Part shown: positions 42,384 through 54,250 of the stretch, piece after piece
Layout: each line of letters begins with the position of its first letter
How positions within the stretch are numbered: the first letter of the stretch is position 1
Origin: a virus
Reading direction: 5' to 3' (one strand)
DNA: 64,000 nucleotides
IMG/VR virus record: IMGVR_UViG_3300008267_000023
Coordinates: 19,218 to 83,217 of that record
Position numbers and translations under genes: made by a program
Notes under the pieces: model-generated
Told to the model about the DNA's origin: nothing
Seen by the model: the letters and a program-made list of their open reading frames with translations, nothing else
Databases searched by the model: none

Positions 42384-42526
42384 CTACTGAAAAAACATCA
42401 GAACAAATTCTAAGGGAATTAGAAGAACTTAGAATACGAGTTGCAATTCTAGAAGAAGATACTAAAGTCCTTCAGTTACAACTTGATTTAACTCAGCAAT
42501 CAATAGACGCAGTGTTTGACCTCTGA
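42380..42526 (+). CDS. Small coiled-coil protein
   Basis: 48 residues, one amphipathic helix (QILRELEELRIRVAILEEDT, LQLQLDLTQQSIDAVFDL). Its stop codon lies inside the stem of the following terminator. Unknown. Confidence 0.6.
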   Translation: MTTEKTSEQILRELEELRIRVAILEEDTKVLQLQLDLTQQSIDAVFDL

Positions 42527-42547
42527 TAAATACTCAGAGGTCTTTTT
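42520..42547 (+). terminator. Terminator with a late promoter in its loop
   Basis: CCTCTGA (42520-42526), 7-base loop, TCAGAGG (42534-42540), then TCTTTTT. The loop region contains GATAAATA (42525-42532), a late promoter for the gene at 42556. Early transcripts would stop here; late RNA starting just downstream would lack the 5' arm. Confidence 0.75.
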
Positions 42548-42555
42548 GTGTTTAT

Positions 42556-43386
42556 ATGCTTTCTGAAGGTAGAAAAAGAGATGCTGCAGCAAATGCAGTT
42601 TTAGCACTTTCATTTGCTGCAAATGCAGCACAATCTCCTCAATCATTAGTAAGATCTGGACACGATGCTGCTCCAAGTCTTCCTTTAATGGGAGAACTGA
42701 TGAGAAAGAGGAAGGAAGCAAATAGAAATTTGGATAGTCCAAGAGTATCAGAACCAGCACGTAATCGTAAGAGAAAAACATTTAAAGAGTTTGTAGAAGA
42801 AGCAGTAATAATTACTGAAGGAGCACACTTCTCAACTAGAGATGAGTTGATAAAACATCATGGAGGAAAACTACCAGATGGAACCTTTATTAAAAATAGA
42901 GGAACAAAAGAGAATCCTAGGTATGGAATTGCTTCATCTCAAGCTAGAGAAAAGCATAAACAAGACCGTGAAGAAAGAACTAAAAAAGCAACAGGGCAAC
43001 TAACCCCAAGGGAAAAGGCAAAAGTTGAACGTAAACGTAAATTAGCAAGAGAACGTGGAGCAGAACTTCATCACGCAACTGAAATAGAAACTTCTGGTAA
43101 AGAAATGAAGGATATGTCTCCTGGTGATGTGTTGAGATATAAGAAAAAGCAAGCACAAGAGAAGAAGTATCACGGCAATGACCCTAAAAATCTAGTTGTT
43201 GCTGATAAAAGTCCAGTATCAAAGTTTAAACCCCAAAAACCAGGATTTCACCATGGTAAGTTCCATGCATTTGAAAGAGGTAATCGTAGAAAACTAGAAG
43301 ATATTGGTAATGCTATTACTCCTATGAGAGCTTTCACTACTCTTGTGAATAAAGCAAGAAGAAAGACTAGAAGAGGTGAAGATTAA
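42556..43386 (+). CDS. Basic putative internal virion protein with HNH-like motif
   Basis: 276 residues, strongly basic. Residues 74-83 are KTFKEFVEEA, matching the T4 internal-protein capsid-targeting sequence, here after a 73-residue Ala/Arg-rich extension. Residues ~168-240 hold an HNH-like pattern: ELHHATEIE (His172, His173), GNDPKNLVVAD (Asn212), GFHHGKFHAFE (His232, His233, His237). It leads a late-promoter gene block whose next members start with the targeting sequence. Inference: an internal protein packaged in the head that may cut DNA after entry. The HNH call is by eye. Confidence 0.65.
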   Translation: MLSEGRKRDAAANAVLALSFAANAAQSPQSLVRSGHDAAPSLPLMGELMRKRKEANRNLDSPRVSEPARNRKRKTFKEFVEEAVIITEGAHFSTRDELIKHHGGKLPDGTFIKNRGTKENPRYGIASSQAREKHKQDREERTKKATGQLTPREKAKVERKRKLARERGAELHHATEIETSGKEMKDMSPGDVLRYKKKQAQEKKYHGNDPKNLVVADKSPVSKFKPQKPGFHHGKFHAFERGNRRKLEDIGNAITPMRAFTTLVNKARRKTRRGED

Positions 43387-43393
43387 ATAAATA
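43386..43393 (+). promoter_or_regulatory. Late promoter AATAAATA
   Basis: AATAAATA directly after the previous stop codon, 21 bases before the ATG of the first gene starting MKTFREFLEEA. Confidence 0.65.
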
Positions 43394-43413
43394 AAAGAAA
43401 AGTCATAAAAAAG

Positions 43414-43872
43414 ATGAAGACCTTTAGAGAGTTCCTAGAAGAAGCATACATCTACGAGATGCGTAAAGAGGATGAAGTAAAGGGAGAAAAGAGAACTCCT
43501 CTTTATGTAAGTAAAACTTCTGGAAGAGTTGTGAAGAACCCTGAGACTGGTCGTTCAGAAGTTAAAAAATCAACAAGAACTTCACTATCACCTAGAGCAG
43601 CAATCGGTAGATTGAAGCAGGGTATGAAAGACCCTCTCAACACCTATAGTCAACCAGAAACTTATGGTGCTACTAGACACGCACACGGTGGTGGTGGAAG
43701 TGGAGCAAAGGCACCTGGAAGAAAGAGAGGTGTTGGTAAGTTAGAGCAACAAAAGATTGATAAGGCACAAAGAGAAAGAGGTGAGAGACCATTGGGTTCG
43801 GGTCCATCTCCAGAATATAAAGTTGCATTGAAGAAAGCAAAAAGAGCACGTTCAATGGGTGGTGGGCAATGA
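43414..43872 (+). CDS. Putative internal virion protein (capsid-targeting N-terminus)
   Basis: 152 residues. Starts MKTFREFLEEAYIYEM; T4 internal proteins start MKTYQEFIAEA and are cut by the gp21 prohead protease after Ile-Ala-Glu. Here Leu-Glu-Glu occupies that place. The rest is basic, Gly/Ser-rich and low in hydrophobic residues (ARHAHGGGGSGAKAPGRKRG-like), suited to DNA-filled capsids. Overlaps the next gene by 4 bases (ATGA). Confidence 0.7.
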   Translation: MKTFREFLEEAYIYEMRKEDEVKGEKRTPLYVSKTSGRVVKNPETGRSEVKKSTRTSLSPRAAIGRLKQGMKDPLNTYSQPETYGATRHAHGGGGSGAKAPGRKRGVGKLEQQKIDKAQRERGERPLGSGPSPEYKVALKKAKRARSMGGGQ

Positions 43873-44717
43873 AGACTTTTCGGGAATTTATTTCTGAAGC
43901 AAAGAAGTGTTGGCCTGGATATAAGAAAAAAGGCACACAAAAACTCTTCGGAAAGACTTATAATCGTTGTGTGAAAGAGGATACCGAAGAACTTGAAGAA
44001 AGTTCAACAGGTGAAAGAAGTGGTAGAAGAACACGAGGCAAGGTAACTCTTGCTCGTGGTCGTGGTGCTGATATGAAAAGGCAGGAGAGAACTACTGCTG
44101 CGATTGCAAAGAAAGCAGGTCTCAAAGGAACTGGTAAGTATTCCACCAATGATTTGAGAACTAGACCATATGATTATACAACTTATGATAGTGAAGATAC
44201 TTATGATGATTATGGTAGCACCGAGCAGGACCATTATATCCGCACTCACGCATCAGCAAGATCAGCAGCAAAGGGAGAGAGTTTAATTAAGAAATATAAA
44301 GAGAGAAGAAAAGACCCACAAGGAAACACTAGAGTTAAAACTGCACCTTCAAGTGAGAGTGTGAGAAGAGTGAGAGATTTTAGAAAGCAAATGACTAAAA
44401 CAGGTGCTAATAAGAGAGGTCCAGTTCATACTGTAGATATTATGCATCGTGATAGTGAAGTTGGAAAAGGTGATAAGGACCAACAAATGGAAAGAGGTAG
44501 AAACTTTATCCAAGCACTAAAAGATACTCCAAAGCATCTAAAAGCGGCAGGAGCAAAGAAAGGTGAGGCTGTAATTGGTAAACCAACAGCAGTTATGTCT
44601 GGTGAAGACCAGAAGACTGGAGTAGCAAAGAGAGCAAAACTTTATAAGAAAGTATTTGGTAAGAGAAGCACTAAAAAGTCTGAAAAGACTGGTCTTATGA
44701 CAGGAAAGGTAGACTAA
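43869..44717 (+). CDS. Putative internal virion protein (capsid-targeting N-terminus)
   Basis: 282 residues, very basic. Starts MKTFREFISEAKKCWPGYKK; the Ile-Ser-Glu before Ala11 fits gp21-type cleavage. A short Cys-containing segment (CWPGYKKKGTQKLFGKTYNR) follows, then Arg/Lys-rich sequence with many Thr, Ser and Asp. No enzyme motif seen. Overlaps both neighbours by 1-4 bases, so the three genes are one translational unit. Confidence 0.7.
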   Translation: MKTFREFISEAKKCWPGYKKKGTQKLFGKTYNRCVKEDTEELEESSTGERSGRRTRGKVTLARGRGADMKRQERTTAAIAKKAGLKGTGKYSTNDLRTRPYDYTTYDSEDTYDDYGSTEQDHYIRTHASARSAAKGESLIKKYKERRKDPQGNTRVKTAPSSESVRRVRDFRKQMTKTGANKRGPVHTVDIMHRDSEVGKGDKDQQMERGRNFIQALKDTPKHLKAAGAKKGEAVIGKPTAVMSGEDQKTGVAKRAKLYKKVFGKRSTKKSEKTGLMTGKVD

Positions 44718-45337
44718 TGAAATCATTCACTCAATTTCTAGAAGAAGCATATTTCATTCTGGAAAAGAAAAGACAATATGATGATGGGCACGGATTTGAT
44801 AGGTCAAAGCATCCTGATTTAGAAATTGATTATGACCGTCCTAGGGGTAAAGACCAGGACCAAAGCATAAGAGGTTATACAAGAATTCATCATAAACCAA
44901 GTGGTATAACGTATGAGGTAAATCACGATAAGAGACATAGCTCTGATGATGAACATGAGCATATGTATGATGCAAAATTGCAAGGAAAAGCAAGAGAAGC
45001 ACACGGACATAAACCAGAACATAATATCCGTTGGGACCACTCCAAACCTTGGAGAGAACGAGATAAGATGAGCAAAGGTGAAAAAATAAAGGCTGCTAGA
45101 GATGCAAAAAGAGTCTGGGATAAGCACATCAAACATAGAATTCCCAGTGGGCATCTAGTATCCAATGAACCAGATGAAAATTCTGATGATAAGAGAAGAG
45201 ACCCAGATAAAAATACAAGAGCATCCATTTATAAGAAATCTGGATTTGGTAAGGTTAATCGTTGGGGAGTTCAATACTCTACAAAGATTGGAAATAAACT
45301 TCATCCAGTCAATGATGACGATGGTGATGACGATTGA
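44717..45337 (+). CDS. Putative internal virion protein (capsid-targeting N-terminus)
   Basis: 206 residues. Starts MKSFTQFLEEAYFILEKKRQ, the third consecutive gene with the targeting-type N-terminus (Leu-Glu-Glu at 8-10). The rest is rich in His, Asp, Lys and Arg (SGITYEVNHDKRHSSDDEHE, HMYDAKLQGKAREAHGHKPE), ending DDDGDDD. Unknown activity; the His/Asp density could bind metals. Confidence 0.65.
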   Translation: MKSFTQFLEEAYFILEKKRQYDDGHGFDRSKHPDLEIDYDRPRGKDQDQSIRGYTRIHHKPSGITYEVNHDKRHSSDDEHEHMYDAKLQGKAREAHGHKPEHNIRWDHSKPWRERDKMSKGEKIKAARDAKRVWDKHIKHRIPSGHLVSNEPDENSDDKRRDPDKNTRASIYKKSGFGKVNRWGVQYSTKIGNKLHPVNDDDGDDD

Positions 45338-45342
45338 AACTA

Positions 45343-45350
45343 AATAAATA
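45343..45350 (+). promoter_or_regulatory. Possible late promoter AATAAATA
   Basis: AATAAATA in the 26-base gap before the ATG at 45364. The predicted RNA start leaves only about 8 leader bases, so it is less certain than the other copies. Confidence 0.4.
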
Positions 45351-45363
45351 AAAAACTGTAAAT

Positions 45364-46398
45364 ATGGATTCCCAAGACTTACGCAATCTTCACGAAGCAT
45401 ATTCTAATGTTTACGAACAGCAGATTGGTGTCCCTCTAAAGGATGCATCTGACCGTGCTGCAAAGGAACAACTTAAGAAGATGATTCCAAAGGGAGAAAA
45501 AATCCATACTCCTAAAGCAACATTACAAAATGCTGCTTATGAACCAGAAGGTGATGAGATTGAAGAGGATGTAAGAAATAGAGATATAAATGCCAGAGGT
45601 GGGTTTGACCCAAGATTTGACAAAAGACCAACAACTACTGGTAGTGGACAAGTCAGAACTCCTGGTGGACCTGTAAAAACTCCTGGTGGACCTGTAAAAA
45701 CTCCTGGTGGTCCAGTATCAACCCCAAGACCAACAGGACCAGTAGCACAAGCACCAAAACCTGCTGGTGGTATTCTTGGAACATTGGATAAGGCTGCTAG
45801 AGATACTGCAGGCAAAGTTGGTGAAGTAGTTGGTAGAGAAACAGCAAAGAGTGTTCCTGGTGCAAATCTTCCTATTCTTGGTGATGTGATTAAAAATGAA
45901 GGTGGAAGAAGAGGAAGAAATCAAGGACAACAGATGTATGATAAAGCAAAGGAAACTGTCGGTAGTTTTCTGAAGCAAGATTATGAACCAGATTTGTTTG
46001 ATGTTATTCTTGAATATCTGGTTGCAGAAGGATATGCAGATACCAATGAGAATGCATTAGTGATTATGGCAAATATGAGTGAAGAGTGGAGAGAAACTAT
46101 TCTTGAAGCAGAAGTTCTTGCTATGAAAGGTGGAGTTCCTGGTTCAGTAAAGGTTAGACCATCTTTAAGTATTCCTGGAACTAATATTGGTGTTGGTCCA
46201 AATAAACCAGTTCCTGGAACTTTTACAACCACAACTCCAGGTCAGAGAGATAAAATTAAGCAAGGTGATACTCACATTGACCGTGGTGTAGGTGGTATGC
46301 AACCAAGACAAGGTGCAGGTCCAACTGGGCAAGAAAGAAGAAGATATAATACACAAATTGCACAAAGTAGAACTCCTGGAAAACCAATGCCACAGTGA
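45364..46398 (+). CDS. Late protein with EGYAD-MSEEW module
   Basis: 344 residues. Starts MDSQDLRNLHEAYSNVYEQQ; Leu-His-Glu before Ala12 could be a prohead-protease site. Pro/Gly-rich linkers with a GGPVKTP repeat (~103-125) follow. Residues ~212-250 hold a helical module, DVILEYLVAEGYADTNENAL then IMANMSEEWRETIL, also found in the proteins at 46901 and 49204. The end is Gly/Pro/Arg-rich. Probably virion-associated; the module may mediate assembly. Confidence 0.65.
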   Translation: MDSQDLRNLHEAYSNVYEQQIGVPLKDASDRAAKEQLKKMIPKGEKIHTPKATLQNAAYEPEGDEIEEDVRNRDINARGGFDPRFDKRPTTTGSGQVRTPGGPVKTPGGPVKTPGGPVSTPRPTGPVAQAPKPAGGILGTLDKAARDTAGKVGEVVGRETAKSVPGANLPILGDVIKNEGGRRGRNQGQQMYDKAKETVGSFLKQDYEPDLFDVILEYLVAEGYADTNENALVIMANMSEEWRETILEAEVLAMKGGVPGSVKVRPSLSIPGTNIGVGPNKPVPGTFTTTTPGQRDKIKQGDTHIDRGVGGMQPRQGAGPTGQERRRYNTQIAQSRTPGKPMPQ

Positions 46399-46900: not shown

Positions 46901-47059
46901 ATGAAACCAACTCCAAGAGAATTGCAAGAAACTTATAAAACCTATGAAAGTCTTGTGGAGCATTTAATATCAGAGGGTTATGCAGATGATAAAGAATCTG
47001 CAGATAAGATTATTGAAGGTATGAGTCAAACCTGGTATAATCTTATCATCAACGACTGA
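46901..47059 (+). CDS. Minimal free-standing EGYAD-MSxxW module protein
   Basis: 52 residues, almost entirely the module: ESLVEHLISEGYADDKESAD followed by IIEGMSQTWYNLIIND. The same unit is fused to larger proteins at 45364 and 49204. Preceded by a late promoter, so probably a late, virion- or assembly-related protein. Confidence 0.75.
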   Translation: MKPTPRELQETYKTYESLVEHLISEGYADDKESADKIIEGMSQTWYNLIIND

Positions 47060-47409: not shown

Positions 47410-47482
47410 GCTGGTTTAGCAATCTGGCGAATGCAATCGACTCATAATCGATGGGAGGCGAGTTCGATCCTCGCAACCAGCA
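47410..47482 (+). tRNA. tRNA with anticodon CAT (Met, or Ile2 if lysidine-modified)
   Basis: Acceptor GCTGGTT/AACCAGC, discriminator A, anticodon stem ATCGA/TCGAT with loop CTCATAA, T arm GCGAGTTCGATCCTCGC. CCA not encoded. A second CAT tRNA lies at 51236, so one of them may be Ile2 reading ATA. Confidence 0.9.
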
Positions 47483-47483
47483 C

Positions 47484-47512
47484 TTGACAATCTGAGGTTC
47501 CTGCCTTATGAT
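47484..47512 (+). promoter_or_regulatory. Sigma70 promoter in the tRNA cluster
   Basis: TTGACA (47484-47489), 17-base spacer, TATGAT (47507-47512). TGACAAT and ATTGTCA form an inverted repeat around the promoter. Confidence 0.8.
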
Positions 47513-47530
47513 TGTCATATAACCAACCAA

Positions 47531-47605
47531 GGGACTGTTGCTTATTGGTTAAAGCCCACTGCTTATAACGGTGTGAACAGAGTTCAATTCTCTGCAGTCC
47601 TACCA
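47531..47605 (+). tRNA. tRNA-Ile(TAT)
   Basis: Acceptor GGGACTG/CAGTCCT with encoded ACCA, anticodon stem CACTG/CGGTG, loop CTTATAA, T loop TTCAATT. Reads ATA without lysidine modification. TAT anticodons are uncommon in bacteria. Confidence 0.9.
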
Positions 47606-47621
47606 AAAAAAAAAACTAAAT

Positions 47622-47705
47622 GGGAGCGTGGCGGAATCGGTAGACGCATCTGACTTAAAATCAGCTGGGAGTAGTCCCGTGGGAGTTCAAGTCTCCCCGT
47701 TCCTA
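47622..47705 (+). tRNA. tRNA-Leu(TAA)
   Basis: Class II tRNA. Acceptor GGGAGCG/CGTTCCT, anticodon loop CTTAAAA, long variable arm GGGAGTAGTCCC, T arm GGGAGTTCAAGTCTCCC. A TTGCCC-GAAA-GGGCAA hairpin follows at 47707-47722. Confidence 0.95.
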
Positions 47706-47756
47706 CTTGCCCGAAAGGGCAAATCGTACAATCTAACTTATAGAATTATCTAACTT

Positions 47757-48338
47757 ATGATTACGACTGAAAGATTCAAAAAAATCTGTGAAACAGAATT
47801 TGACTGGAACATGATTTTTGGGGCAGTGAAAGATGCCTACAATGATAAAGGATTTAAGAGCAATTCAGATAACTTTTTGCGAGCAAAGGTATTTGAACTT
47901 GCTATTGCTTGCTTCTCCCAAGTTGAATACATTGACGAAGATGGAGTTGACTTTCTCCTGAAAGTTCTTGGAGACTGTATTCGAATTGAAGCAAAGTTCC
48001 TCAAGGGTTTCTTTAAGAAGGACGGAACTTGCAAAGAAGTAAAAATGAAAAATTATCGGGGAGATGTAACTGAGGTTGCTTTTAACCGATATCAAACTGA
48101 AAATAAATTTGATTATGTAATGATTATTGACCGTGATTCATATAAGGTTGCGATTGCTTCCCGTGAAACGGCACAAAAGTATTATGTGAGCAAAGGTGAT
48201 GGAGTGATGGTGCAGTTTCCTATCAATGAACTCAGTGTTCTTGATTTGGATATTGCAAACTTTACTTTCCCAGAATCACCTGATAGACTGTCTGACCTCC
48301 TTCGGGAAACAATGATTAACTGGATTAAAAATAGATGA
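47757..48338 (+). CDS. Putative restriction endonuclease, PD-(D/E)xK type
   Basis: 193 residues. A nuclease signature is visible: KVFELAIACFSQVEY (Glu47), DEDGVDFLLKVLGDC (Asp65), IRIEAKF (Glu78-x-Lys80). It overlaps a DNA adenine methyltransferase gene by 4 bases, the usual arrangement of a type II restriction-modification pair. It might instead be a nuclease acting on host DNA. No homology to a named enzyme is claimed. Confidence 0.65.
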   Translation: MITTERFKKICETEFDWNMIFGAVKDAYNDKGFKSNSDNFLRAKVFELAIACFSQVEYIDEDGVDFLLKVLGDCIRIEAKFLKGFFKKDGTCKEVKMKNYRGDVTEVAFNRYQTENKFDYVMIIDRDSYKVAIASRETAQKYYVSKGDGVMVQFPINELSVLDLDIANFTFPESPDRLSDLLRETMINWIKNR

Positions 48339-49174
48339 AACAATTCCCATTAAAGACTATGCTCCGTTACCCTGGAGGCAAGAGTAAAGCACTAAAGACT
48401 CTTGCTCCTTGGTTTCCGAGTGACTTCAAAGAGTTCCGTGAACCATTCTTGGGTGGTGGAAGCATTTCTTTAATGATTTCTCAAAACTACCCAAAGGTTC
48501 CTATTTGGGTGAATGACAAATACTTTTATCTCTATAACTTCTGGGTTCAACTTCGTGATAATGGTCAAACATTATCGGAAAGGTTGAGAGCAATCAAAGA
48601 AGAAGTAAATGGAGATGATGAAGCACATAAAGACTTGTTCAATCGGTATCAGAGTGACATTGAAACTCTTGAACCTTTTGAACAAGCAATTGCTTTTTTC
48701 ATTCTAAACAAGTGTTCTTATTCTGGTTTGACTGAGAATTCTACATTCTCAGTTCAAGCATCACGTTCTAACTTTTCTCTTGTTGGTATTGACAAACTTC
48801 CAAAGTATTCATACATCATTAAAAACTGGAAAATCACAAACATTGATTATGAACCAGTGATGAACGATGCTGGTGATAACGTATTTGTCTTTCTTGACCC
48901 TCCTTACGACATTAAAGATTTCCTTTATGGAACGGGAAGGAAACTACACTCCTCATTCTCACACGAAAGATTTGCGGATGATGTAGATAATTGTCCTCAT
49001 CGTTTTATGATTACTTACAACCTTAATGATTGGTTGTTGAATCGTTATAAAGAGTATAATCTTAACGAGTGGAAACTTAGATACTCTATGGTTCACCGTG
49101 GAGAGAAGGGAACTCAAGACAATGTGAAGACAGAATTGCTAATTACCAATTACCAACAAGATTCGATTATATAA
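48335..49174 (+). CDS. DNA adenine N6-methyltransferase (D12/Dam class)
   Basis: 279 residues. Motifs in D12 order: MLRYPGGKSKALKTLAPWFP, SAM-binding REPFLGGGS (35-43), LNKCSYSGLTENSTFSVQ (125-142), catalytic VFLDPPYDI (DPPY 188-191). It methylates adenine, probably at a short palindrome such as GATC (inference). It may protect phage DNA from the linked nuclease or from host enzymes. Confidence 0.9.
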   Translation: MKQFPLKTMLRYPGGKSKALKTLAPWFPSDFKEFREPFLGGGSISLMISQNYPKVPIWVNDKYFYLYNFWVQLRDNGQTLSERLRAIKEEVNGDDEAHKDLFNRYQSDIETLEPFEQAIAFFILNKCSYSGLTENSTFSVQASRSNFSLVGIDKLPKYSYIIKNWKITNIDYEPVMNDAGDNVFVFLDPPYDIKDFLYGTGRKLHSSFSHERFADDVDNCPHRFMITYNLNDWLLNRYKEYNLNEWKLRYSMVHRGEKGTQDNVKTELLITNYQQDSII

Positions 49175-49177
49175 ATA
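49170..49177 (+). promoter_or_regulatory. Late promoter TATAAATA
   Basis: Full T4 late consensus TATAAATA across the methyltransferase stop codon, 26 bases before the ATG at 49204. Confidence 0.7.
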
Positions 49178-49203
49178 AAATATATAAGAATTATACAAAA
49201 CCA

Positions 49204-49899
49204 ATGGATTATAAGGACCTGCAAAATCTTTCCAACCTAACAAGACAAGTTTTGTCTGAATCAAATCAACCAAAAGAGTCATATTTGGATAAGTGGCCCT
49301 ATACTTCTCCATATCTTGAAGAAGAAGTTATTGATGAAGAGAGAGCAGAGGGTGTAAAACCATATCGTCCAACTATGTCTCAGGCAGAAGTTAGGGCAGA
49401 TGCAAAGAAAGCTCGTGAAAAGCACTTAAAAAGTGCTGAAGGAAAAACTGGTTATGGTCCTGAAGAGAAGTTTAAGGATTGGAAAGATAAAGCAACCCCA
49501 GGTTCAACTCTCAAGAGAAAGGGTGGAGAAGAGGAAACTGTTTCACAAAGAATGGACCGTGAAAAGCCTTATGGTAAGAGAATGACTGGTCCTCTTGCTA
49601 GAGCACAAGGAAGTCGTACTGCTTCTGCTGTAACAAGAACAACCGAGGGTCCAGGAGAACCTCAAGCAGTTACAATGCCTAGAAAAGGTAGAGAAGAAGC
49701 ACCAAAGAAAAAGGCAAAGCCTTCTAGAGAAATTATCCGTAGAGCAAAGACAGAAGAAAGCTTCGATCTTTATGATCTAATTCTTGCACACCTAGTTAGT
49801 GAAGGATTTGCTGAGACTCCAAAAGCAGCAGTTGCAATTATGAGCAACATGAGTGAAGCATGGGTAGACAGCATTGTTGACTACTACATCGAAGGTTGA
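49204..49899 (+). CDS. Late protein with EGFAE-MSEAW module
   Basis: 231 residues, basic. Starts MDYKDLQNLSNLTRQVLSES. The C-terminal ~40 residues are YDLILAHLVSEGFAETPKAA then IMSNMSEAWVDSIV, the module shared with 45364 and 46901. The middle is Lys/Arg/Glu-rich (AEVRADAKKAREKHLKSAEG). Behind a full late promoter, so probably virion-related like its paralogues. Confidence 0.65.
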   Translation: MDYKDLQNLSNLTRQVLSESNQPKESYLDKWPYTSPYLEEEVIDEERAEGVKPYRPTMSQAEVRADAKKAREKHLKSAEGKTGYGPEEKFKDWKDKATPGSTLKRKGGEEETVSQRMDREKPYGKRMTGPLARAQGSRTASAVTRTTEGPGEPQAVTMPRKGREEAPKKKAKPSREIIRRAKTEESFDLYDLILAHLVSEGFAETPKAAVAIMSNMSEAWVDSIVDYYIEG

Positions 49900-49926
49900 C
49901 TTTTTTCTAAAAACCTGGTATAAATA
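49896..49926 (+). promoter_or_regulatory. Combined sigma70 and late promoter
   Basis: TTGACT (49896-49901), 17-base spacer, TATAAA (49919-49924), which is also the start of the late consensus TATAAATA (49919-49926). Both polymerase forms could use it. Confidence 0.6.
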
Positions 49927-49945
49927 AAACATACAACATAAAACA

Positions 49946-50047
49946 ATGACTAACCTTCATACACAACCAAAGAGTGATTATAATCCCATTACCTGCTGGT
50001 TTATGGGAGAATCCCTCTTGGTTGCAAATGTGGTAAGTCAAAGTTAA
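49946..50047 (+). CDS. Possible 33-residue peptide
   Basis: An ATG 20 bases after the promoter opens a 33-codon frame (MTNLHTQPKSDYNPITCWFM). It ends before a strong terminator, so promoter, short frame and terminator form one unit. It could be a leader peptide or a small RNA rather than a gene. Confidence 0.35.
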   Translation: MTNLHTQPKSDYNPITCWFMGESLLVANVVSQS

Positions 50048-50071
50048 CAGAACAAACCATAAAAGCAATCA

Positions 50072-50106
50072 AGAGGGAGAATCCAAAAGGTTCTCCCTCT
50101 TTTTTT
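50072..50106 (+). terminator. Rho-independent terminator
   Basis: AGAGGGAGAATCC, loop AAAA, GGTTCTCCCTCT with one bulged base, then seven T. It ends the short unit started at 49926. From here to 50209 I see no gene. Confidence 0.95.
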
Positions 50107-50209
50107 ATGCCTTGTGCCACTTGTTCAACTGGTCGTATCATTTGCCACTGGGGTCCAAACCCTGGTATATTACATGAGTCGGTGGGGGAACGAGACCCCA
50201 AACTGCCAA

Positions 50210-50266
50210 GTCCACTTTCGGAACTGGCACAACCCACTTGCCCCGCAACGGGTTCCGTGGTATTCT
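50210..50266 (+). promoter_or_regulatory. Boxed promoter of the main tRNA cluster
   Basis: ACTGGC (50223-50228), 32 bases, TATTCT (50261-50266); TTGCCC (50238-50243) sits 17 bases from the -10. Predicted start near 50273, 52 bases before the first tRNA of the cluster. Confidence 0.75.
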
Positions 50267-50324
50267 TAAGGAGTGGTTGAGAGACCACCAGCACCTTGAC
50301 AACTGAATAATTACCACATTATAT

Positions 50325-50396
50325 GGGTCTGTAACTCAATGGTAGAGTAACGGGCTTTTAACCTGGAAGTTGTGAGTTCGAGCCTCACCAGACCCA
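50325..50396 (+). tRNA. tRNA-Lys(TTT)
   Basis: Acceptor GGGTCTG/CAGACCC, discriminator A, D stem ACTC/GAGT, anticodon loop CTTTTAA, T arm GTGAGTTCGAGCCTCAC. Confidence 0.95.
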
Positions 50397-50434
50397 TTGA
50401 CCGCCGCAGTTCGGTCATTAAATATCAACTGTTC

Positions 50435-50516
50435 GGGTAGGTGTCCGAGTGGTTAATGGAGGCGGACTGTAAATCCGCTGGCTCTGCCTACGGGGGTTCA
50501 AATCCCTCCCTGCCCA
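50435..50516 (+). tRNA. tRNA-Tyr(GTA)
   Basis: Class II. Acceptor GGGTAGG/CCTGCCC, discriminator A, anticodon loop CTGTAAA, variable arm GGCTCTGCC, T arm GGGGGTTCAAATCCCTCC. Confidence 0.95.
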
Positions 50517-50520
50517 CCTT

Positions 50521-50593
50521 GACCTTGTAACTCAGTGGTTAGAGTGCTACCCTGTCACGGTAGAAGTCGTGGGTTCAAGTCCCATCAAGGTCG
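50521..50593 (+). tRNA. tRNA-Asp(GTC)
   Basis: Acceptor GACCTTG/CAAGGTC, discriminator G, anticodon stem CTACC/GGTAG with loop CTGTCAC, T arm GTGGGTTCAAGTCCCAT. Confidence 0.95.
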
Positions 50594-50758
50594 TTGTTAC
50601 ACTGCCGATGGAGTATCCCTCCTTGGTGGTTGTAGCACGTTATCCTGAATGTTGCCAGTTAGGTAAGGAATAACGTAGCGAGAAACTGGAAGAGGGGAGG
50701 AAGTGGAAGCCGTTGATTTTAAATCAACTTAGAGGTGCATTTGCTTCTTCCTCATCAA
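50594..50758 (+). other. Structured spacer with pseudoknot-like pairing
   Basis: 165 bases between tRNA-Asp and tRNA-Glu with no tRNA. Stem 1: 50637-50645 pairs with 50667-50676 (ACGTTATCC/GGAATAACGT, one bulge). Stem 2: CCAGTT (50655-50660) pairs with AACTGG (50684-50689). The order S1-S2-S1'-S2' is an H-type pseudoknot. A long stem-loop follows (50699-50751) with a tRNA-like 7-base loop at its tip (GTTGA-TTTTAAA-TCAAC) but no D or T arm. Either a remnant of a tRNA plus spacer, or a small RNA. Confidence 0.45.
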
Positions 50759-50831
50759 GGTCCTATCGTCTAGAGGCCAAGGACATCACTCTTTCACAGT
50801 GAAGACACGGGTTCAAATCCCGTTAGGACTA
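50759..50831 (+). tRNA. tRNA-Glu(TTC)
   Basis: Acceptor GGTCCTA/TAGGACT, discriminator A, anticodon stem TCACT/AGTGA with loop CTTTCAC, T arm ACGGGTTCAAATCCCGT. Confidence 0.95.
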
Positions 50832-50835
50832 CCTT

Positions 50836-50909
50836 GGGAACATAGCTCCAACTGGTAGAGCACAGGGCTGAAGACCTTGGTGTTGTCGGTTCAAATCCGA
50901 CTGTTCCCA
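50836..50909 (+). tRNA. tRNA-Phe(GAA)
   Basis: Acceptor GGGAACA/TGTTCCC, discriminator A, anticodon loop CTGAAGA, T arm GTCGGTTCAAATCCGAC. Confidence 0.95.
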
Positions 50910-50910
50910 C

Positions 50911-51048
50911 TTGGGTTGTTGCCCGATATGAAAAACACTTCTAGTTACTTTAGCGGGTAACAATAGTTGTGAAAAATCGGAATTACCCCTGCCCGTTCTC
51001 TTCGGGATGCGAATTGGGGAAAGGCAAAGGGAAGAGACAACAACCCAT
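50911..51048 (+). ncRNA. Candidate structured RNA between tRNA-Phe and tRNA-Ile
   Basis: A perfect 10-bp closing helix pairs 50912-50921 (TGGGTTGTTG) with 51038-51047 (CAACAACCCA). Inside: CCGAT (50923-50927)/ATCGG (50976-50980), enclosing CTA-GTTAC (50941-50948)/GTAAC-aa-TAG (50957-50966); then CCCC (50986-50989)/GGGG (51016-51019), enclosing CCCG (50992-50995)/CGGG (51003-51006). The result is a closed multi-branch fold with no coding frame or tRNA. No match to an RNA family I know. Confidence 0.55.
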
Positions 51049-51051
51049 ATT

Positions 51052-51123
51052 GGAACCGTAGCTCAGTGGTAGAGCACTCGGCTGATAACCGAGCGGTCAC
51101 AAGTTCAAATCTTGTCGGTTCCA
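51052..51123 (+). tRNA. tRNA-Ile(GAT)
   Basis: Acceptor GGAACCG/CGGTTCC, discriminator A, anticodon stem CTCGG/CCGAG with loop CTGATAA, T arm CAAGTTCAAATCTTG. Confidence 0.95.
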
Positions 51124-51142
51124 TTCCCTTTATGGGAAACTC

Positions 51143-51232
51143 GGAAGTGTGGCAGAGAGGTCTAATGCAGTGGATTGCTAATCCGCCGATGTTCTTTAAG
51201 GGCATCCGTTGGTTCGAATCCAACCACTTCCG
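51143..51232 (+). tRNA. tRNA-Ser(GCT)
   Basis: Class II, 90 bases. Acceptor GGAAGTG/CACTTCC, discriminator G, anticodon loop TTGCTAA, long variable arm, T arm GTTGGTTCGAATCCAAC. Confidence 0.95.
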
Positions 51233-51235
51233 TTT

Positions 51236-51309
51236 GGCAGTATAGCTCAGTCTGGCAGAGCACGGGTCTCATATGCCTATGGTCGATAGTTCAAATCTAT
51301 CTACTGCCT
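51236..51309 (+). tRNA. tRNA-Met(CAT)
   Basis: Acceptor GGCAGTA/TACTGCC, unusual discriminator T, D stem GCTC/GAGC, anticodon loop CTCATAT, T arm GATAGTTCAAATCTATC. Second CAT tRNA in the window; the pair at 1-72 is G-C, so not a typical initiator. Confidence 0.85.
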
Positions 51310-51310
51310 T

Positions 51311-51382
51311 GTGTCGTTAGCCTAGTGGTTAAGGCAGTAGTTTGTGGAACTACCTAGATGAGTTCAATTCTCATACGACACC
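51311..51382 (+). tRNA. tRNA-His(GTG)
   Basis: Acceptor GTGTCGT/ACGACAC, C73 as in His tRNAs, anticodon stem GTAGT/ACTAC with loop TTGTGGA, T arm ATGAGTTCAATTCTCAT. The base before G1 is T, so G-1 would have to be added afterwards. Confidence 0.9.
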
Positions 51383-51384
51383 CC

Positions 51385-51462
51385 GTTTAGGTGGCAGAGT
51401 GGTCAAATGCAACAGTCTGCAAAACTGTAAAACCGTGGGTTCGAATCCCACCCTAAACTCCA
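51385..51462 (+). tRNA. tRNA-Cys(GCA)
   Basis: Acceptor GTTTAGG/CCTAAAC, T73 (a Cys identity element) and encoded CCA, anticodon stem ACAGT/ACTGT with loop CTGCAAA, T arm GTGGGTTCGAATCCCAC. Confidence 0.95.
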
Positions 51463-51463
51463 A

Positions 51464-51535
51464 TCCAGAATCGACTAACTGGCAGGTCACCACCCTTTGA
51501 AGGTGTTCGTCTGGGTTCGAATCCTAGTTCTGGAA
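51464..51535 (+). tRNA. tRNA-Gln(TTG)
   Basis: Acceptor TCCAGAA/TTCTGGA, discriminator A, anticodon stem CACC/GGTG with loop CTTTGAA, T loop TTCGAAT. Starts two bases after the tRNA-Cys CCA. Confidence 0.95.
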
Positions 51536-51539
51536 CTAT

Positions 51540-51620
51540 GCCCCTGTGGTGAAATGGTAGACACAGTTGACTCAAAATCAACCGCAGAAATGCATGTCGG
51601 TTCGAATCCGACTGGGGGCA
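51540..51620 (+). tRNA. tRNA-Leu(CAA)
   Basis: Class II. Acceptor GCCCCTG/TGGGGGC, discriminator A, anticodon stem GTTGA/TCAAC with loop CTCAAAA, T arm GTCGGTTCGAATCCGAC. Confidence 0.95.
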
Positions 51621-51625
51621 CCTAA

Positions 51626-51697
51626 GCAGGATTGGTGTAATTGGTAGCACGAGAGTCTCCAAAACTTTTAGTAGAGGTTCAAGTCCTCTATCCTGTG
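51626..51697 (+). tRNA. tRNA-Trp(CCA)
   Basis: Acceptor GCAGGAT/ATCCTGT (G-T first pair), G73 as in Trp tRNAs, anticodon loop CTCCAAA, T arm AGAGGTTCAAGTCCTCT. Confidence 0.9.
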
Positions 51698-51700
51698 CTT

Positions 51701-51774
51701 GTTCTCTTAACTCAGTGGAATAGAGTGCTTGGCTACGAACCAAGAAGTCGGAGGTTCAAATCCTCCAGAGAACG
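51701..51774 (+). tRNA. tRNA-Arg(ACG)
   Basis: Acceptor GTTCTCT/AGAGAAC, discriminator G, anticodon stem CTTGG/CCAAG with loop CTACGAA, T arm GGAGGTTCAAATCCTCC. A34 would need host TadA to become inosine. Confidence 0.95.
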
Positions 51775-51775
51775 C

Positions 51776-51804
51776 TTGACAATCTATGCTACATATAGTA
51801 TGAT
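51776..51804 (+). promoter_or_regulatory. Sigma70 promoter inside the tRNA cluster
   Basis: TTGACA (51776-51781), 17-base spacer, TATGAT (51799-51804), directly after tRNA-Arg. It shares TTGACAATCT...TATGATTGT with the promoter at 47484. Confidence 0.85.
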
Positions 51805-51813
51805 TGTTATATT

Positions 51814-51898
51814 GGAAAGGTGGTCGAGTGGTTGAAGGCTCTAGTCTTGAAAACTAGCGATGTGAAAGCATCCGTGGGTTCGAATCCCACCCTTTCCG
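51814..51898 (+). tRNA. tRNA-Ser(TGA)
   Basis: Class II. Acceptor GGAAAGG/CCTTTCC, discriminator G, anticodon stem CTAGT/ACTAG with loop CTTGAAA, variable arm GATGTGAAAGCATC, T arm GTGGGTTCGAATCCCAC. Confidence 0.95.
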
Positions 51899-51918
51899 TT
51901 GCTCCTTGTGAGCAAAAT

Positions 51919-51992
51919 GCCTCCGTAGCTCAGCTGGATAGAGCAACGGTTTTGTAAACCGTAGGTCGTCGGTTCAAGTCCGACCGTGGGCT
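51919..51992 (+). tRNA. tRNA-Thr(TGT)
   Basis: Acceptor GCCTCCG/CGTGGGC with one mismatch (C-T) and T73, anticodon stem ACGGT/ACCGT with loop TTTGTAA, T arm GTCGGTTCAAGTCCGAC. Confidence 0.9.
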
Positions 51993-52020
51993 TGACAGAA
52001 TTTCAATTCTGTCTTACACT
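51992..52020 (+). promoter_or_regulatory. Sigma70 promoter inside the tRNA cluster
   Basis: TTGACA (51992-51997), 17-base spacer, TACACT (52015-52020), starting at the last base of tRNA-Thr. A perfect TTGAGGAA-GAAA-TTCCTCAA hairpin (52047-52066) lies in its leader before tRNA-Gly. Confidence 0.75.
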
Positions 52021-52071
52021 TCTTTAGTCCGTGTGAAGGAAGTGAGTTGAGGAAGAAATTCCTCAACATTT

Positions 52072-52146
52072 GCGAAAGTAACTCAACGGTAGAGTCCCTG
52101 CCTTCCAAGCAGGTTGTTGCGAGTTCGAATCTCGTCTTTCGCTCCA
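52072..52146 (+). tRNA. tRNA-Gly(TCC)
   Basis: Acceptor GCGAAAG/CTTTCGC, T73 and encoded CCA, anticodon stem CCTGC/GCAGG with loop CTTCCAA, T arm GCGAGTTCGAATCTCGT. Confidence 0.95.
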
Positions 52147-52218
52147 GGGAAATTAACTCAGTGGTAGAGTGGCCTCCTTACAAGTGGTAAGTCACTGGTT
52201 CGAATCCAGTATTTCCCA
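52147..52218 (+). tRNA. tRNA-Val(TAC)
   Basis: Acceptor GGGAAAT/ATTTCCC, discriminator A, D stem ACTC/GAGT, anticodon loop CTTACAA, T arm ACTGGTTCGAATCCAGT. Starts at the base after the tRNA-Gly CCA. Confidence 0.9.
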
Positions 52219-52242
52219 TTAACAATATACATATATTGTTAA
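52219..52242 (+). repeat. Perfect 11-bp inverted repeat between tRNAs
   Basis: TTAACAATATA and TATATTGTTAA separated by two bases. As RNA it would form a stable hairpin between tRNA-Val and tRNA-Pro; no T-run follows, so processing or separation is more likely than termination. Confidence 0.7.
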
Positions 52243-52249
52243 ACAAACT

Positions 52250-52323
52250 CGGGATGTAGCGCAGCTTGGTAGCGCATCTGTTTTGGGAACAGAGGGTCGT
52301 AGGTTCGAATCCTATCATCCCGA
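52250..52323 (+). tRNA. tRNA-Pro(TGG)
   Basis: Acceptor CGGGATG/CATCCCG, discriminator A, D stem GCGC/GCGC, anticodon stem TCTGT/ACAGA with loop TTTGGGA, T arm GTAGGTTCGAATCCTAT. Confidence 0.95.
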
Positions 52324-52348
52324 CTTGAAACAATTTTCTTTTAATTAT

Positions 52349-52960
52349 ATGGACACAATTCACTATCTTTATAAAGAAAATTGTTTCAGTCAATCCGAAT
52401 TGGATTTGATTTTTGATGAGTTAAACTTTTTAAATAATCCATTAATTCTTGAGGGTCCAGAAGTAACTGGTTCAGCAGAAAAAAATGGTTCTTTCAAGAA
52501 GAAGAATAAAGGTGTTTGGGTGAGTGATTTTTACACAAATCCACATAAAACATCTTTATGGAGATTAACTAGAAAAGTTTTAGATAATTATATATTAGAT
52601 TATAGTCAATTGCACTATTCAAATAGAGCAGTGCTAAATACAAATTACTCTAAAACATTATTATCTTATTATGAAAATGCAGATTGTTATGAACCACATA
52701 CTGATTCTGCATCAGTAACAGTGTTATTTTGGTTTTTCAAAGAACCAAAGCATTTTGATGGGGGAGACCTCATTCTTAATGATATTGGAAAAACATTTGA
52801 AGTACAAAATAACTCAATGTTGATGTTTCCTTCTTGGGCAAAACATTCTGTTACTGAAGTAAAAATGGATGAAAAGTATTTAAATCAAAAATTGGGTAGA
52901 TACTCAATTACAATGTTTATGCATATTCATCCACATTATGATTATATTTCTAACAAATGA
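52349..52960 (+). CDS. 2OG-Fe(II) oxygenase
   Basis: 203 residues from ATG 52349 (the longer frame from 52283 runs through tRNA-Pro). Core motifs: YEPHTDSASVTVLFWFF (His117-x-Asp119), DGGDLILNDIG, SMLMFPSWAKHSVTEV (His166), GRYSITMFMH (Arg184). It resembles prolyl hydroxylase-like enzymes. An insertion inside the tRNA cluster; the next small gene overlaps it (ATGA). Confidence 0.85.
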   Translation: MDTIHYLYKENCFSQSELDLIFDELNFLNNPLILEGPEVTGSAEKNGSFKKKNKGVWVSDFYTNPHKTSLWRLTRKVLDNYILDYSQLHYSNRAVLNTNYSKTLLSYYENADCYEPHTDSASVTVLFWFFKEPKHFDGGDLILNDIGKTFEVQNNSMLMFPSWAKHSVTEVKMDEKYLNQKLGRYSITMFMHIHPHYDYISNK

Positions 52961-53124
52961 AAATAAATCTCTGGTACTGTAAAGATATGGGTCAGTGGAG
53001 GTGGTCATTAACTGATGATTCCCGACCAATCGTTAAGCAGGAAACTGGTCAACAACCAGATTTACGAGTTGCAATGAATGACATTGCAAACACTGTTGAA
53101 TATATGCTTTCTAAGGAAAGTTAA
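52957..53124 (+). CDS. Small conserved protein
   Basis: 55 residues: MKINLWYCKDMGQWRWSLTD, PDLRVAMNDIANTVEYMLSK. The LRVAMNDIANTVEYxL segment is one I recall from small cyanophage proteins. Coupled to the oxygenase by ATGA overlap; tRNA-Asn follows 6 bases later. Unknown function. Confidence 0.7.
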   Translation: MKINLWYCKDMGQWRWSLTDDSRPIVKQETGQQPDLRVAMNDIANTVEYMLSKES

Positions 53125-53130
53125 TTTTAT

Positions 53131-53202
53131 TCCCCTATAGCTCAACGGCAGAGCAGAGAGCTGTTAACTCTAAGGTTCCTCGTTCGAATCGAGGTGGGGG
53201 AG
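53131..53202 (+). tRNA. tRNA-Asn(GTT)
   Basis: Acceptor TCCCCTA/TGGGGGA, discriminator G, anticodon stem GAGAG/CTCTA with loop CTGTTAA, T arm CCTCGTTCGAATCGAGG. Confidence 0.95.
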
Positions 53203-53331
53203 TTGGAAGTCCTAGGTCTTCCAAACTGAAAATGCTGGACAAACTTCGGGGGTACAAATCCTTGCAAGGTCTCCCTGCCCATTACCTGGTGGTTCCTGAG
53301 AACAGGAAGAATAAGGTCTGGTGTTTTCTTT
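53203..53331 (+). other. Structured spacer, possible tRNA remnant
   Basis: 129 bases with no gene. Hairpins: TTGGAAG/CTTCCAA (53203-53224, loop TCCTAGGT) and TTCCTG-AGAA-CAGGAA (53293-53308). The sequence GGGGGTACAAATCC near 53250 resembles a decayed T arm, and CTTCCAA a Gly-type anticodon loop. No complete cloverleaf can be drawn. Confidence 0.35.
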
Positions 53332-53413
53332 GTCGATGTGGCGGAATTGGTAGACGCGCTGGGTTTAGGTTCCAGTGAAGTAATTCGTGGAGGTTCAAGT
53401 CCTCTCATCGATA
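53332..53413 (+). tRNA. tRNA-Leu(TAG)
   Basis: Class II. Acceptor GTCGATG/CATCGAT, discriminator A, anticodon stem CTGGG/TCCAG with loop TTTAGGT, variable arm TGAAGTAATTCG, T arm GAGGTTCAAGTCCTC. A TTAGGAT-TTTT-ATCCTAA hairpin follows (53414-53431). Confidence 0.9.
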
Positions 53414-53445
53414 TTAGGATTTTTATCCTAAATAAAAAAAAAAAC

Positions 53446-53518
53446 GGGGAATTAGCTCAGTTGGTAGAGCAGGGTCTTTGCAAGGCCAAGGTCAGGAGTT
53501 CGAGTCTCCTATTCTCCA
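53446..53518 (+). tRNA. tRNA-Ala(TGC)
   Basis: Acceptor GGGGAAT/ATTCTCC with the G3-T70 pair that marks Ala, discriminator A, anticodon loop TTTGCAA, T arm AGGAGTTCGAGTCTCCT. Last tRNA of the cluster. Confidence 0.95.
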
Positions 53519-53540: not shown

Positions 53541-53981
53541 ATGGAACTTCAAACGATTGGGTCAAAGGTTTTAAGAGAAAAAGCAAAAAGAGTAGCAAAT
53601 ATTGATGATACCATAAGGTATCTTTGTTTTAATATGGCAAAGACCATGAGAGAGAAAAATGGTATTGGTATTGCTGCTCCTCAAGTTGGTGTAAGTAAAA
53701 GAATTATAATTGTTGATAATAAAGGAAAAGACTGGATTTTAATCAATCCAGAAATAGTATGGAAAAGTGATACCCTTGTTAATTTTGAAGAAGGATGTCT
53801 AAGTGTTCCTGGTGTTTTTGATAATGTGAAAAGACCAGAATCAATAAAGATTAAATATAGAAACGCAAAGGGAAAACCAATCTTCGAAAAAGTAGATGGT
53901 TTATTGTCGAGAATTGTTCAACATGAGATTGACCATTTAGATGGAGTTTTATTTGTTGACTATTTGAAAGAAAAAGAGTAA
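53541..53981 (+). CDS. def: Peptide deformylase
   Basis: 146 residues. All three family motifs are present: GIGIAAPQVG (41-50), EEGCLSVPG (83-91) with the metal Cys, and QHEIDHLDG (127-135) with the metal His pair and catalytic Glu. It removes the formyl group from new proteins. Phage deformylases are known in marine cyanophages and are thought to help mature photosystem proteins such as D1. Here it stands between the tRNAs and the tmRNA. The C-terminus is short, as in phage forms. Confidence 0.95.
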   Translation: MELQTIGSKVLREKAKRVANIDDTIRYLCFNMAKTMREKNGIGIAAPQVGVSKRIIIVDNKGKDWILINPEIVWKSDTLVNFEEGCLSVPGVFDNVKRPESIKIKYRNAKGKPIFEKVDGLLSRIVQHEIDHLDGVLFVDYLKEKE

Positions 53982-53984
53982 TAT

Positions 53985-54049
53985 ATAAAGTGTTCAAGAG
54001 GATGGGAATTCTGATGTTTCGGACTGGGGTTCGATTCCCCACATCTCCA
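53985..54049 (+). ncRNA. ssrA: tmRNA acceptor piece (permuted, two-piece)
   Basis: TTTCGGACTGGGGTTCGATT holds the T arm, as in tmRNA; CATCTCC (54042-54048) is the 3' acceptor strand and A54049 the discriminator. CATCTCC pairs with GGGGATG at 54056-54062 downstream, giving a G3-U70 Ala pair. TCAA (53994-53997) and GATGGG (54001-54006) pair with TTGA and CTTATC of the coding piece (helix P2). The 3' half lies upstream of the 5' half, the permuted order known from alpha-cyanobacteria. CCA is not encoded; the left end is approximate. Confidence 0.85.
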
Positions 54050-54055
54050 TTTCAG

Positions 54056-54228
54056 GGGGATGTACTGGTTTCGACGGGGCATAAAGGTCTTATCTGTTGA
54101 CGGGACAAACAAACAAACAAACGCAGCGAATAAAATCGTCAAGTTCACTCGTCAGTCTGCACCTGTTGCAGTTTGACTCTAAATGAGTGGAGGGGGTTAT
54201 AAGTTTCCTTCTTACCCAAAACTTACAT
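54056..54228 (+). ncRNA. ssrA: tmRNA coding piece (permuted, two-piece)
   Basis: Starts GGGGATGTACTGGTTTCGAC, the tmRNA 5' signature (acceptor strand plus D-loop). P2 strands CTTATC (54089-54094) and TTGA (54097-54100) follow. The tag frame starts at GCA 54123 or GCG 54126: (A)ANKIVKFTRQSAPVAV, stop TGA 54174-54176. A pseudoknot follows: GGGT (54194-54197)/ACCC (54214-54217) with AAGTTT (54201-54206)/AAACTT (54219-54224). Only 6 bases separate the two pieces. With SmpB it frees stalled ribosomes and tags the products. The final residue is Val where Ala is usual. Confidence 0.9.
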
Positions 54229-54250
54229 AGGGGTGCAATGCCCCTTTTAT
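54229..54250 (+). terminator. Terminator after the tmRNA
   Basis: AGGGG, 7-base loop, CCCCT, then TTTATTTTA. Confidence 0.7.

Follow-up and report, generated by a model that had tools for sequence, protein, structure and literature searches.

Phage T4 provides the closest described system for the genes considered here. Its three internal proteins, IPI, IPII and IPIII, inhibit GmrSD nucleases, each a different one (PMC12373910), and mutagenesis of the T4 capsid-targeting sequence (CTS) assigned residues 4 and 7 to targeting and residues 8 and 10 to processing (PMC9026906). IPII and IPIII begin MKTYQEFIAEA, IPI begins MKTFKEFTSTTTPVSTITEA, and T4 gp23 carries SFLTEAEIGG; besides IPI-III, a 54-amino acid open frame of T4 (L138, near 19101, minus strand) has a CTS-like start, MKTFKEFIKE. 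Among the papers searched, just one, a T4 review, has 'capsid targeting' together with 'cyanophage'. Here we describe a block of four genes at positions 42556-45337 of a 64,000-nucleotide stretch of viral DNA (the window; positions 19,218 to 83,217 of IMG/VR record IMGVR_UViG_3300008267_000023). We strongly favor the view that their products are internal proteins packaged by a T4-like cyanophage, made as precursors that would be cut by a gp21-type protease and whose payload would enter the host with the DNA. The source record, of which the window is a part, is an incomplete fragment of 83,217 bases from a T4-like cyanophage of the Kyanoviridae type, marked as such by a psbD-like fragment, a gp32-like protein, baseplate hub and tail genes, CobS-like and bilin reductase genes; the named phages closest to it infect Synechococcus. 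The block comprises the following features, given in window coordinates with predicted cut sites marked by an arrow:

42556..43386, + strand: gene 1, 276 amino acids; a conserved 72-amino acid leader extension, an internal CTS and a mature part with the HNH-like invariants H172 H173, N212 and H233.
42772..42801, + strand: internal CTS of gene 1, RKTFKEFVEE, with the predicted gp21 cut before Ala83 (RKTFKEFVEEA is residues 73-83, KTFKEFVEEA residues 74-83).
43414..43872, + strand: gene 2, 152 amino acids, basic, with a CTS at its start; 29 relatives, nearly all bearing this first leader class (tag 1) or standing behind a gene-1 type leader.
43414..43443, + strand: CTS of gene 2, MKTFREFLEE↓A, a match to the leader pattern.
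43869..44717, + strand: gene 3, 282 amino acids; a CTS, a KKCWPGYKKKGTQKLFGKTYNRCVK module and a mature domain preceded by a second site, LEE↓S.
43869..43898, + strand: CTS of gene 3, MKTFREFISE↓A, a match to the leader pattern.
44717..45337, + strand: gene 4, 206 amino acids; a CTS and a payload with no recognized fold, whose distant relatives likewise begin MKTFQEF.
44717..44746, + strand: CTS of gene 4, MKSFTQFLEE↓A, a match to the leader pattern.

A sequence-only reading of this DNA had proposed that three adjacent genes begin with T4-type leaders (MKTFREFLEEA at 43414, MKTFREFISEA at 43869 and MKSFTQFLEEA at 44717) and that a fourth carries one internally. Re-reading of the sequence confirmed all four sites and their coordinates, and the T4 start that had been given for comparison, MKTYQEFIAEA, matches the fetched IPII and IPIII sequences. 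A degenerate DNA pattern for the leader matched three times in the window, each time at the start of a block gene, compared with no matches in 100 dinucleotide shuffles; the rest of the 83-kb record held no further match, and a reversed-pattern control gave none. From related virus contigs totaling about 1.5 Mb, we collected all distinct open frames beginning MK[TS], a set whose sequences are not all independent. Among 120 distinct MK[TS][FY] starts, Phe7 was present in 95%, an Ile, Leu, Val or Met at position 8 in 85% and Glu10 in 84%, whereas the 55 control starts, with neither Phe nor Tyr at position 4, had Phe7 in 5%, an aliphatic residue 8 in 35% and Glu10 in 7%. Phe4 and Phe7 occur in all three start leaders and in the internal leader of gene 1, and the candidate cut sites (LEE↓A, ISE↓A, LEE↓A and VEE↓A) fit a gp21-type protease by motif, with an aliphatic P3, Glu at P1 and a small P1', as had been claimed. 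As judged from these sequences, the conserved leader positions (4, 7, 8 and 10) are those predicted by the T4 experiments. When the family profiles of genes 3 and 4 were aligned with hhalign, the alignment was confined to residues 1-11. It is well supported by such comparisons that the leader works as a tag on unrelated proteins, with conservation ending at the predicted cut site, and we are highly confident that its function is capsid targeting. The T4-type interpretation holds up in each of the available sequence tests: conservation of the residues identified by mutagenesis, similarity limited to 11 residues, the variety of payloads, the presence of gp21 in relatives and the enrichment in virions of other phages described below.

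The leader of gene 1 is internal; K74, T75, F76 and F79 are invariant in 24 gene-1 relatives, in which the leader is either internal or itself the start (L058, L061, L076). Structure prediction of the mature parts had been suggested as a check by the sequence-only reading. AlphaFold2 modeled the mature part of gene 1, which has an invariant HH...N...H, with a predicted local distance difference test score (pLDDT) of about 85-90, showing a strand-strand-helix order, with no fold match in the PDB, and the gene 4 model (pLDDT 66) gave no significant match. Pfam matches to the gene 1 family are weak, at E about 0.03, with HNH_2 matching 4 of the 24 members and AHH matching 1. Given the HNH-like signature, an HNH nuclease is a tentative candidate identity for gene 1. 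No cellular relatives of gene 1 were found in GTDB genomes. For genes 3 and 4, profile search and Foldseek produced no PDB match, and the PHROG matches of genes 2-4 are weak and to families without assigned function. Part of gene 3 is 37% identical in the isolate S-SRM01, a phage that has two CTS paralogues of the gene-3 type as well as NMNAT. A GNAT-like fold, considered for genes 3 and 4 from a RAxLYKKxGF stretch, was unsupported by Pfam, PDB profile search and Foldseek; for gene 4, 13 sequences gave no Pfam or PDB match, and no GNAT was among the best 50 fold matches, none of which was significant. A weak GNAT match (E 0.027) does occur in relatives, in a separate CTS-tagged module that is neither gene 3 nor gene 4. 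The mature parts are also unlike T4 IPII and IPIII, both of which stayed single when mature parts were clustered at E 1e-4; IPI, whose leader the pattern does not match, was outside this set.

Behind the leader, relatives have about a dozen payload modules in about 30 arrangements (34 architecture strings were counted, some of them taken from loci that overlap on one contig). Usually the first cistron has the same 72-residue extension plus leader, placed before the HNH-like module or the gene-2 module, and the remaining modules follow with leaders of their own or as fusions. Fusion junctions keep an [LI]xE-small residue site, as in ...NDEDLEE↓AKAPKSD... (L007) and ...MQELEE↓SSMGERS... (L038), which, from the sequence, would let gp21 release separate payloads from fused precursors. 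Some payloads are duplicated, with two copies of gene 3 in L038 and two gene-4-like copies in L159. A HiPIP-type high-potential iron-sulfur protein bearing the CTS leader (L006:11758-11961, L136:1501 and L146:1501) scores above the Pfam cut-off in relatives and occurs in the isolate S-SRM01 as well. A transfer RNA (tRNA) cluster lies downstream of the block in most relatives' loci with enough flank, and T4 ipI likewise adjoins its tRNA cluster. The search for a gp21 homologue, also suggested at the outset, succeeded in five relatives (65-70% identity to S-SM2 gp21), one of which (G009, 72.6 kb) carries it on the same contig as the block. The major capsid protein beside gp21 in G009 reads SGSFLTEAVPT, the same FLTE↓A site as in the SFLTEA of T4 gp23.

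The same leader, packaging and cleavage would be expected if the four proteins were prohead-core or DNA-condensing morphogenesis factors with a role in head assembly or DNA packing. Their composition suits such a role: as the sequence-only reading had noted, the proteins are basic and poor in hydrophobic residues (mature pI 10.3, 10.4, 10.1 and 9.0 for genes 1-4; 20-25% hydrophobic). Loss of IPIII in T4 slows head assembly (PMC9026906), and one family of CTS proteins, ~105 amino acids long and also found in S-SRM01, has its gene about 2 kb ahead of gp21 in the relative G002 (78736 vs 80997). However, payload content differs greatly among close relatives, which is unusual for assembly factors; enzymes, namely NMNAT, SAM hydrolase, a kinase and the HiPIP-like protein, bear the same leader; and all three T4 internal proteins inhibit host nucleases (PMC12373910). 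We consider a purely morphogenetic role unlikely, though it is the most serious competitor of a delivered payload.

Virion mass spectrometry has been published for two T4-like cyanophages, S-CREM2 (PMC10665884) and S-SCSM1 (PMC9602691). At potential gene starts in both genomes, we looked for M..[FY]..F[LIVMF].E, with one residue fewer permitted before the aromatic. Strict CTS starts were found in 5 of 97 virion proteins vs 1 of 404 others in the two phages combined (Fisher p=0.0013). The test has few hits, and its pattern, derived from the freshwater set, was fixed when some of the S-CREM2 proteins were already known. In S-CREM2 (OR473000; L181, L182, L183), all four strict CTS proteins are in virions and none is among the other proteins. 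The five strict virion proteins, among them enzymes not previously accounted for in virions (NMNAT, SAM hydrolase and a kinase), are:

S-CREM2 gp6: SAM hydrolase, MKDFDSFLEE, in virions.
S-CREM2 gp14: APH-like kinase, VKRFDAFLTE, in virions.
S-CREM2 gp136: MQTFSMFFSE, in virions.
S-CREM2 gp154: cytidylyltransferase, MKNFSSFLTE (then A), in virions.
S-SCSM1 NMNAT: MKSFLQFLKE (then A), in virions.

Looser leaders are likewise present in virions, in S-CREM2 gp13 (MKDLHSFLTE), in the Cas9-like gp12 (internal LRFASFMAEA) and in SSCSM1_93, ending KRTFKEFLEYIE. S-CREM2 gp160, also in virions, contains the CWPGY module of gene 3, a module found in addition in a structural-protein family beside the terminase genes of S-SM2 and S-P4. 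The NMNAT/cytidylyltransferase begins with the leader in 9 of 10 phages examined (loci L137, L142, L187-L191, L197 and L198), with a one-residue-shorter form in S-SZBM1; in Bellamy, the annotated start of gp170 NMNAT (L188) lies about 16 codons too far downstream, which hides the leader. In the parts of the two proteome papers that we consulted, the leader goes unmentioned, mature N-termini of the leader-bearing proteins are not given, and whether such enzymes are packaged or carried over is left open (PMC10665884, PMC9602691). Carry-over is named as a possibility by the authors of both papers and would mean that proteins with the leader remain inside the infected cell, with a late role such as lysis or takeover, their detection in virions reflecting abundance. 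Yet carry-over should not select for the 10-residue leader of the T4 internal proteins, and 4 of 4 non-lytic enzymes in S-CREM2 virions bear such a leader, internally in the Cas9-like protein and at the N-terminus in the others; we judge this explanation very improbable. Slightly weaker still, and hardly credible, is the proposal that the shared N-terminus reflects descent only, in old tandem duplicates diverged beyond recognition and a leader with no targeting role: the genes are adjacent and co-oriented and some payloads are truly duplicated (L038, L159), but the leader stands on clearly unrelated proteins at unlinked places (NMNAT, HiPIP-like) and in T4, its conservation ends at the predicted cut site in agreement with the T4 mutational data, and leader-bearing proteins are enriched in virions; the proposal already stands contradicted.

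Several observations weigh against packaging and delivery of the block's products. The virion detections come from S-CREM2 and S-SCSM1 and not from the phage studied here, and one S-SCSM1 protein with a strict CTS, SSCSM1_30, was undetected in its virions. A tblastn search of sequenced phage isolates found no relative of gene 1, 2 or 4, and as to payload functions, genes 1-4 have no confident match to Pfam, the PDB, PADLOC or other defense-system models. gp21 itself was not found in the 83-kb record, a fragment that lacks this region. We know of no T4 precedent for an internal CTS such as that of gene 1, which stands behind 72 residues.

On balance, the packaged internal protein model accounts best for the locus. 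In this model, the precursors would be brought into the prohead core by their 10-residue leaders and cut after [ILV]-x-E by a gp21-type protease of the phage, and the freed basic payload would stay with the packaged DNA and enter the host cell with it. The locus would be an exchange hotspot beside a tRNA cluster, in which payload modules are swapped, fused and duplicated behind leaders, and the extra [LI]xE sites at module junctions would allow some fused precursors to be cut into several payloads. At the very onset of infection, the payloads would probably target the host, much as T4 IPI-III counter GmrSD nucleases. From motif and context, packaging and gp21 cleavage of these proteins are very likely, and their injection is probable; the likeliest role of the payloads, by analogy to T4, is to counter a host system within the first minutes, and the chances that at least one of the four proteins has an anti-defense action are about even.

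The related system continues beyond 45337, with two further leader classes:

45364..46398, + strand: gene 5, 344 amino acids, beginning MDSQDLRNLHEAYSNVY; second leader class (tag 2), MDSQDLRNLHE↓AYSNVY.
49204..49899, + strand: gene beginning MDYKDLQNLSNLTRQVLSES; third leader class, MDYKDLQNLSNLTRQVLSE↓S, with a C-terminal module in common with gene 5.

Both leaders recur on many different proteins, likewise ending [LIV]xE-A/S. The second exchanges payloads with the first class, a WNDP module following tag 2 in L036 but tag 1 in L061 and L065, and a tag-2 protein of S-SCSM1, SSCSM1_89 (MDSKTFNSLSEAYAAVY), is labeled a virion protein. These classes may be further packaging leaders, which we offer as a lead and not as a result; from its sequence gene 5 is probably also packaged, and the gene at 49204 is possibly a further packaged protein. 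The C-terminal module, (H/Y)L.(S/D)EGYAD....A..IM..MSE.W, recurs in the window at 45364-46398, 46901-47059 and 49204-49899 and at many other loci, and the proteins sharing it have different N-terminal leaders. A broader proposal, to which we would give even odds, is that the Kyanoviridae in general use the T4 capsid-targeting leader as a delivery tag and that the block is a payload cassette, with a fixed leader cistron by the tRNA genes, host-directed modules that are swapped and fused, fusions that are cut by gp21, and at least two other classes of leader (MDSQDLRNLxEAY..VY and MNYKDLQN...ILTEA) using the same route. A general delivery tag would explain the NMNAT, SAM hydrolase, kinase and Cas9-like proteins in Kyanoviridae virions.

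The locus reads gene 1, a 27-nucleotide gap with ATAAATA, genes 2, 3 and 4, ATAAATA, gene 5 and then tRNA genes from 47410. The late-promoter-like sites, each a consensus match, are:

42526..42532, + strand: ATAAATA before gene 1, 24 nucleotides upstream of it.
43387..43393, + strand: ATAAATA before gene 2, inside TAAATAAATA.
45344..45350, + strand: ATAAATA before gene 5.

The genes had been described as overlapping each other and lying behind late promoters. Genes 2/3 overlap by 4 nucleotides and genes 3/4 by 1, but genes 1 and 2 are 27 nucleotides apart, with the promoter-like site between them; similarly, ATAAATA lies upstream of genes 1, 2 and 5 but not of genes 3 and 4. The motif is not over-represented across the window relative to shuffles (16 observed vs 22.6 expected), so the promoter argument is one of position and strand only; 16 of 16 occurrences are on the coding strand. 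Downstream, 25 tRNA genes for all 20 amino acids (47410-53518, + strand) are directly followed by a phage-encoded, permuted transfer-messenger RNA (tmRNA) of cyanobacterial type (53960-54244, + strand; Rfam RF01851, 133 bits; tag AANKIVKFTRQSAPVAV), whose start at 53960 overlaps the end of a peptide deformylase gene (53541-53981). Within this region (47757-49174, + strand), a 193-amino acid gene (47757) precedes and overlaps a D12-class adenine methyltransferase (48335), possibly forming a restriction-modification-like pair.

Host defenses encounter injected proteins before any other phage product, and such proteins are hardly known outside the T-even phages. If they could be predicted in cyanophages by a sequence rule, many 'hypothetical proteins' would become candidates for immediate-early counter-defense or host takeover; the rule would also settle whether NMNAT and similar enzymes are truly packaged or contaminants. 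Against defenses that deplete NAD, injecting an enzyme that makes NAD would be a natural response.

Polyvalent proteins and the DarA-Hdf antirestriction proteins of P1 are also thought to be delivered with phage DNA; we know of no T4-type leader on them. The S-CREM2 enzymes (SAM hydrolase, APH-like kinase, Cas9-like nuclease, cytidylyltransferase) and the S-SCSM1 NMNAT have the same leader as the block and are virion-detected, but they are recognizable enzymes from scattered genes, whereas the block is a hotspot of small basic proteins. Closest are T4 IPI, IPII and IPIII, with which the block shares a ten-residue N-terminal leader (aromatic residue 4, Phe7, aliphatic residue 8, Glu10, then Ala), unrelated basic mature parts, a location beside a tRNA cluster and hotspot-like variability. 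In contrast to T4, the mature parts have no similarity to IPII or IPIII, the leader can be internal behind a conserved 72-amino acid extension, fusion or duplication of payloads occurs and brings extra [LI]xE sites, and the host is a cyanobacterium, GmrSD, the T4 target, being a candidate for this phage by analogy only. The block is thus a Kyanoviridae version of the T4 internal-protein system, distinguished by the internal leader on a conserved first cistron, by modular and probably cleavable fusions, and by new payloads.

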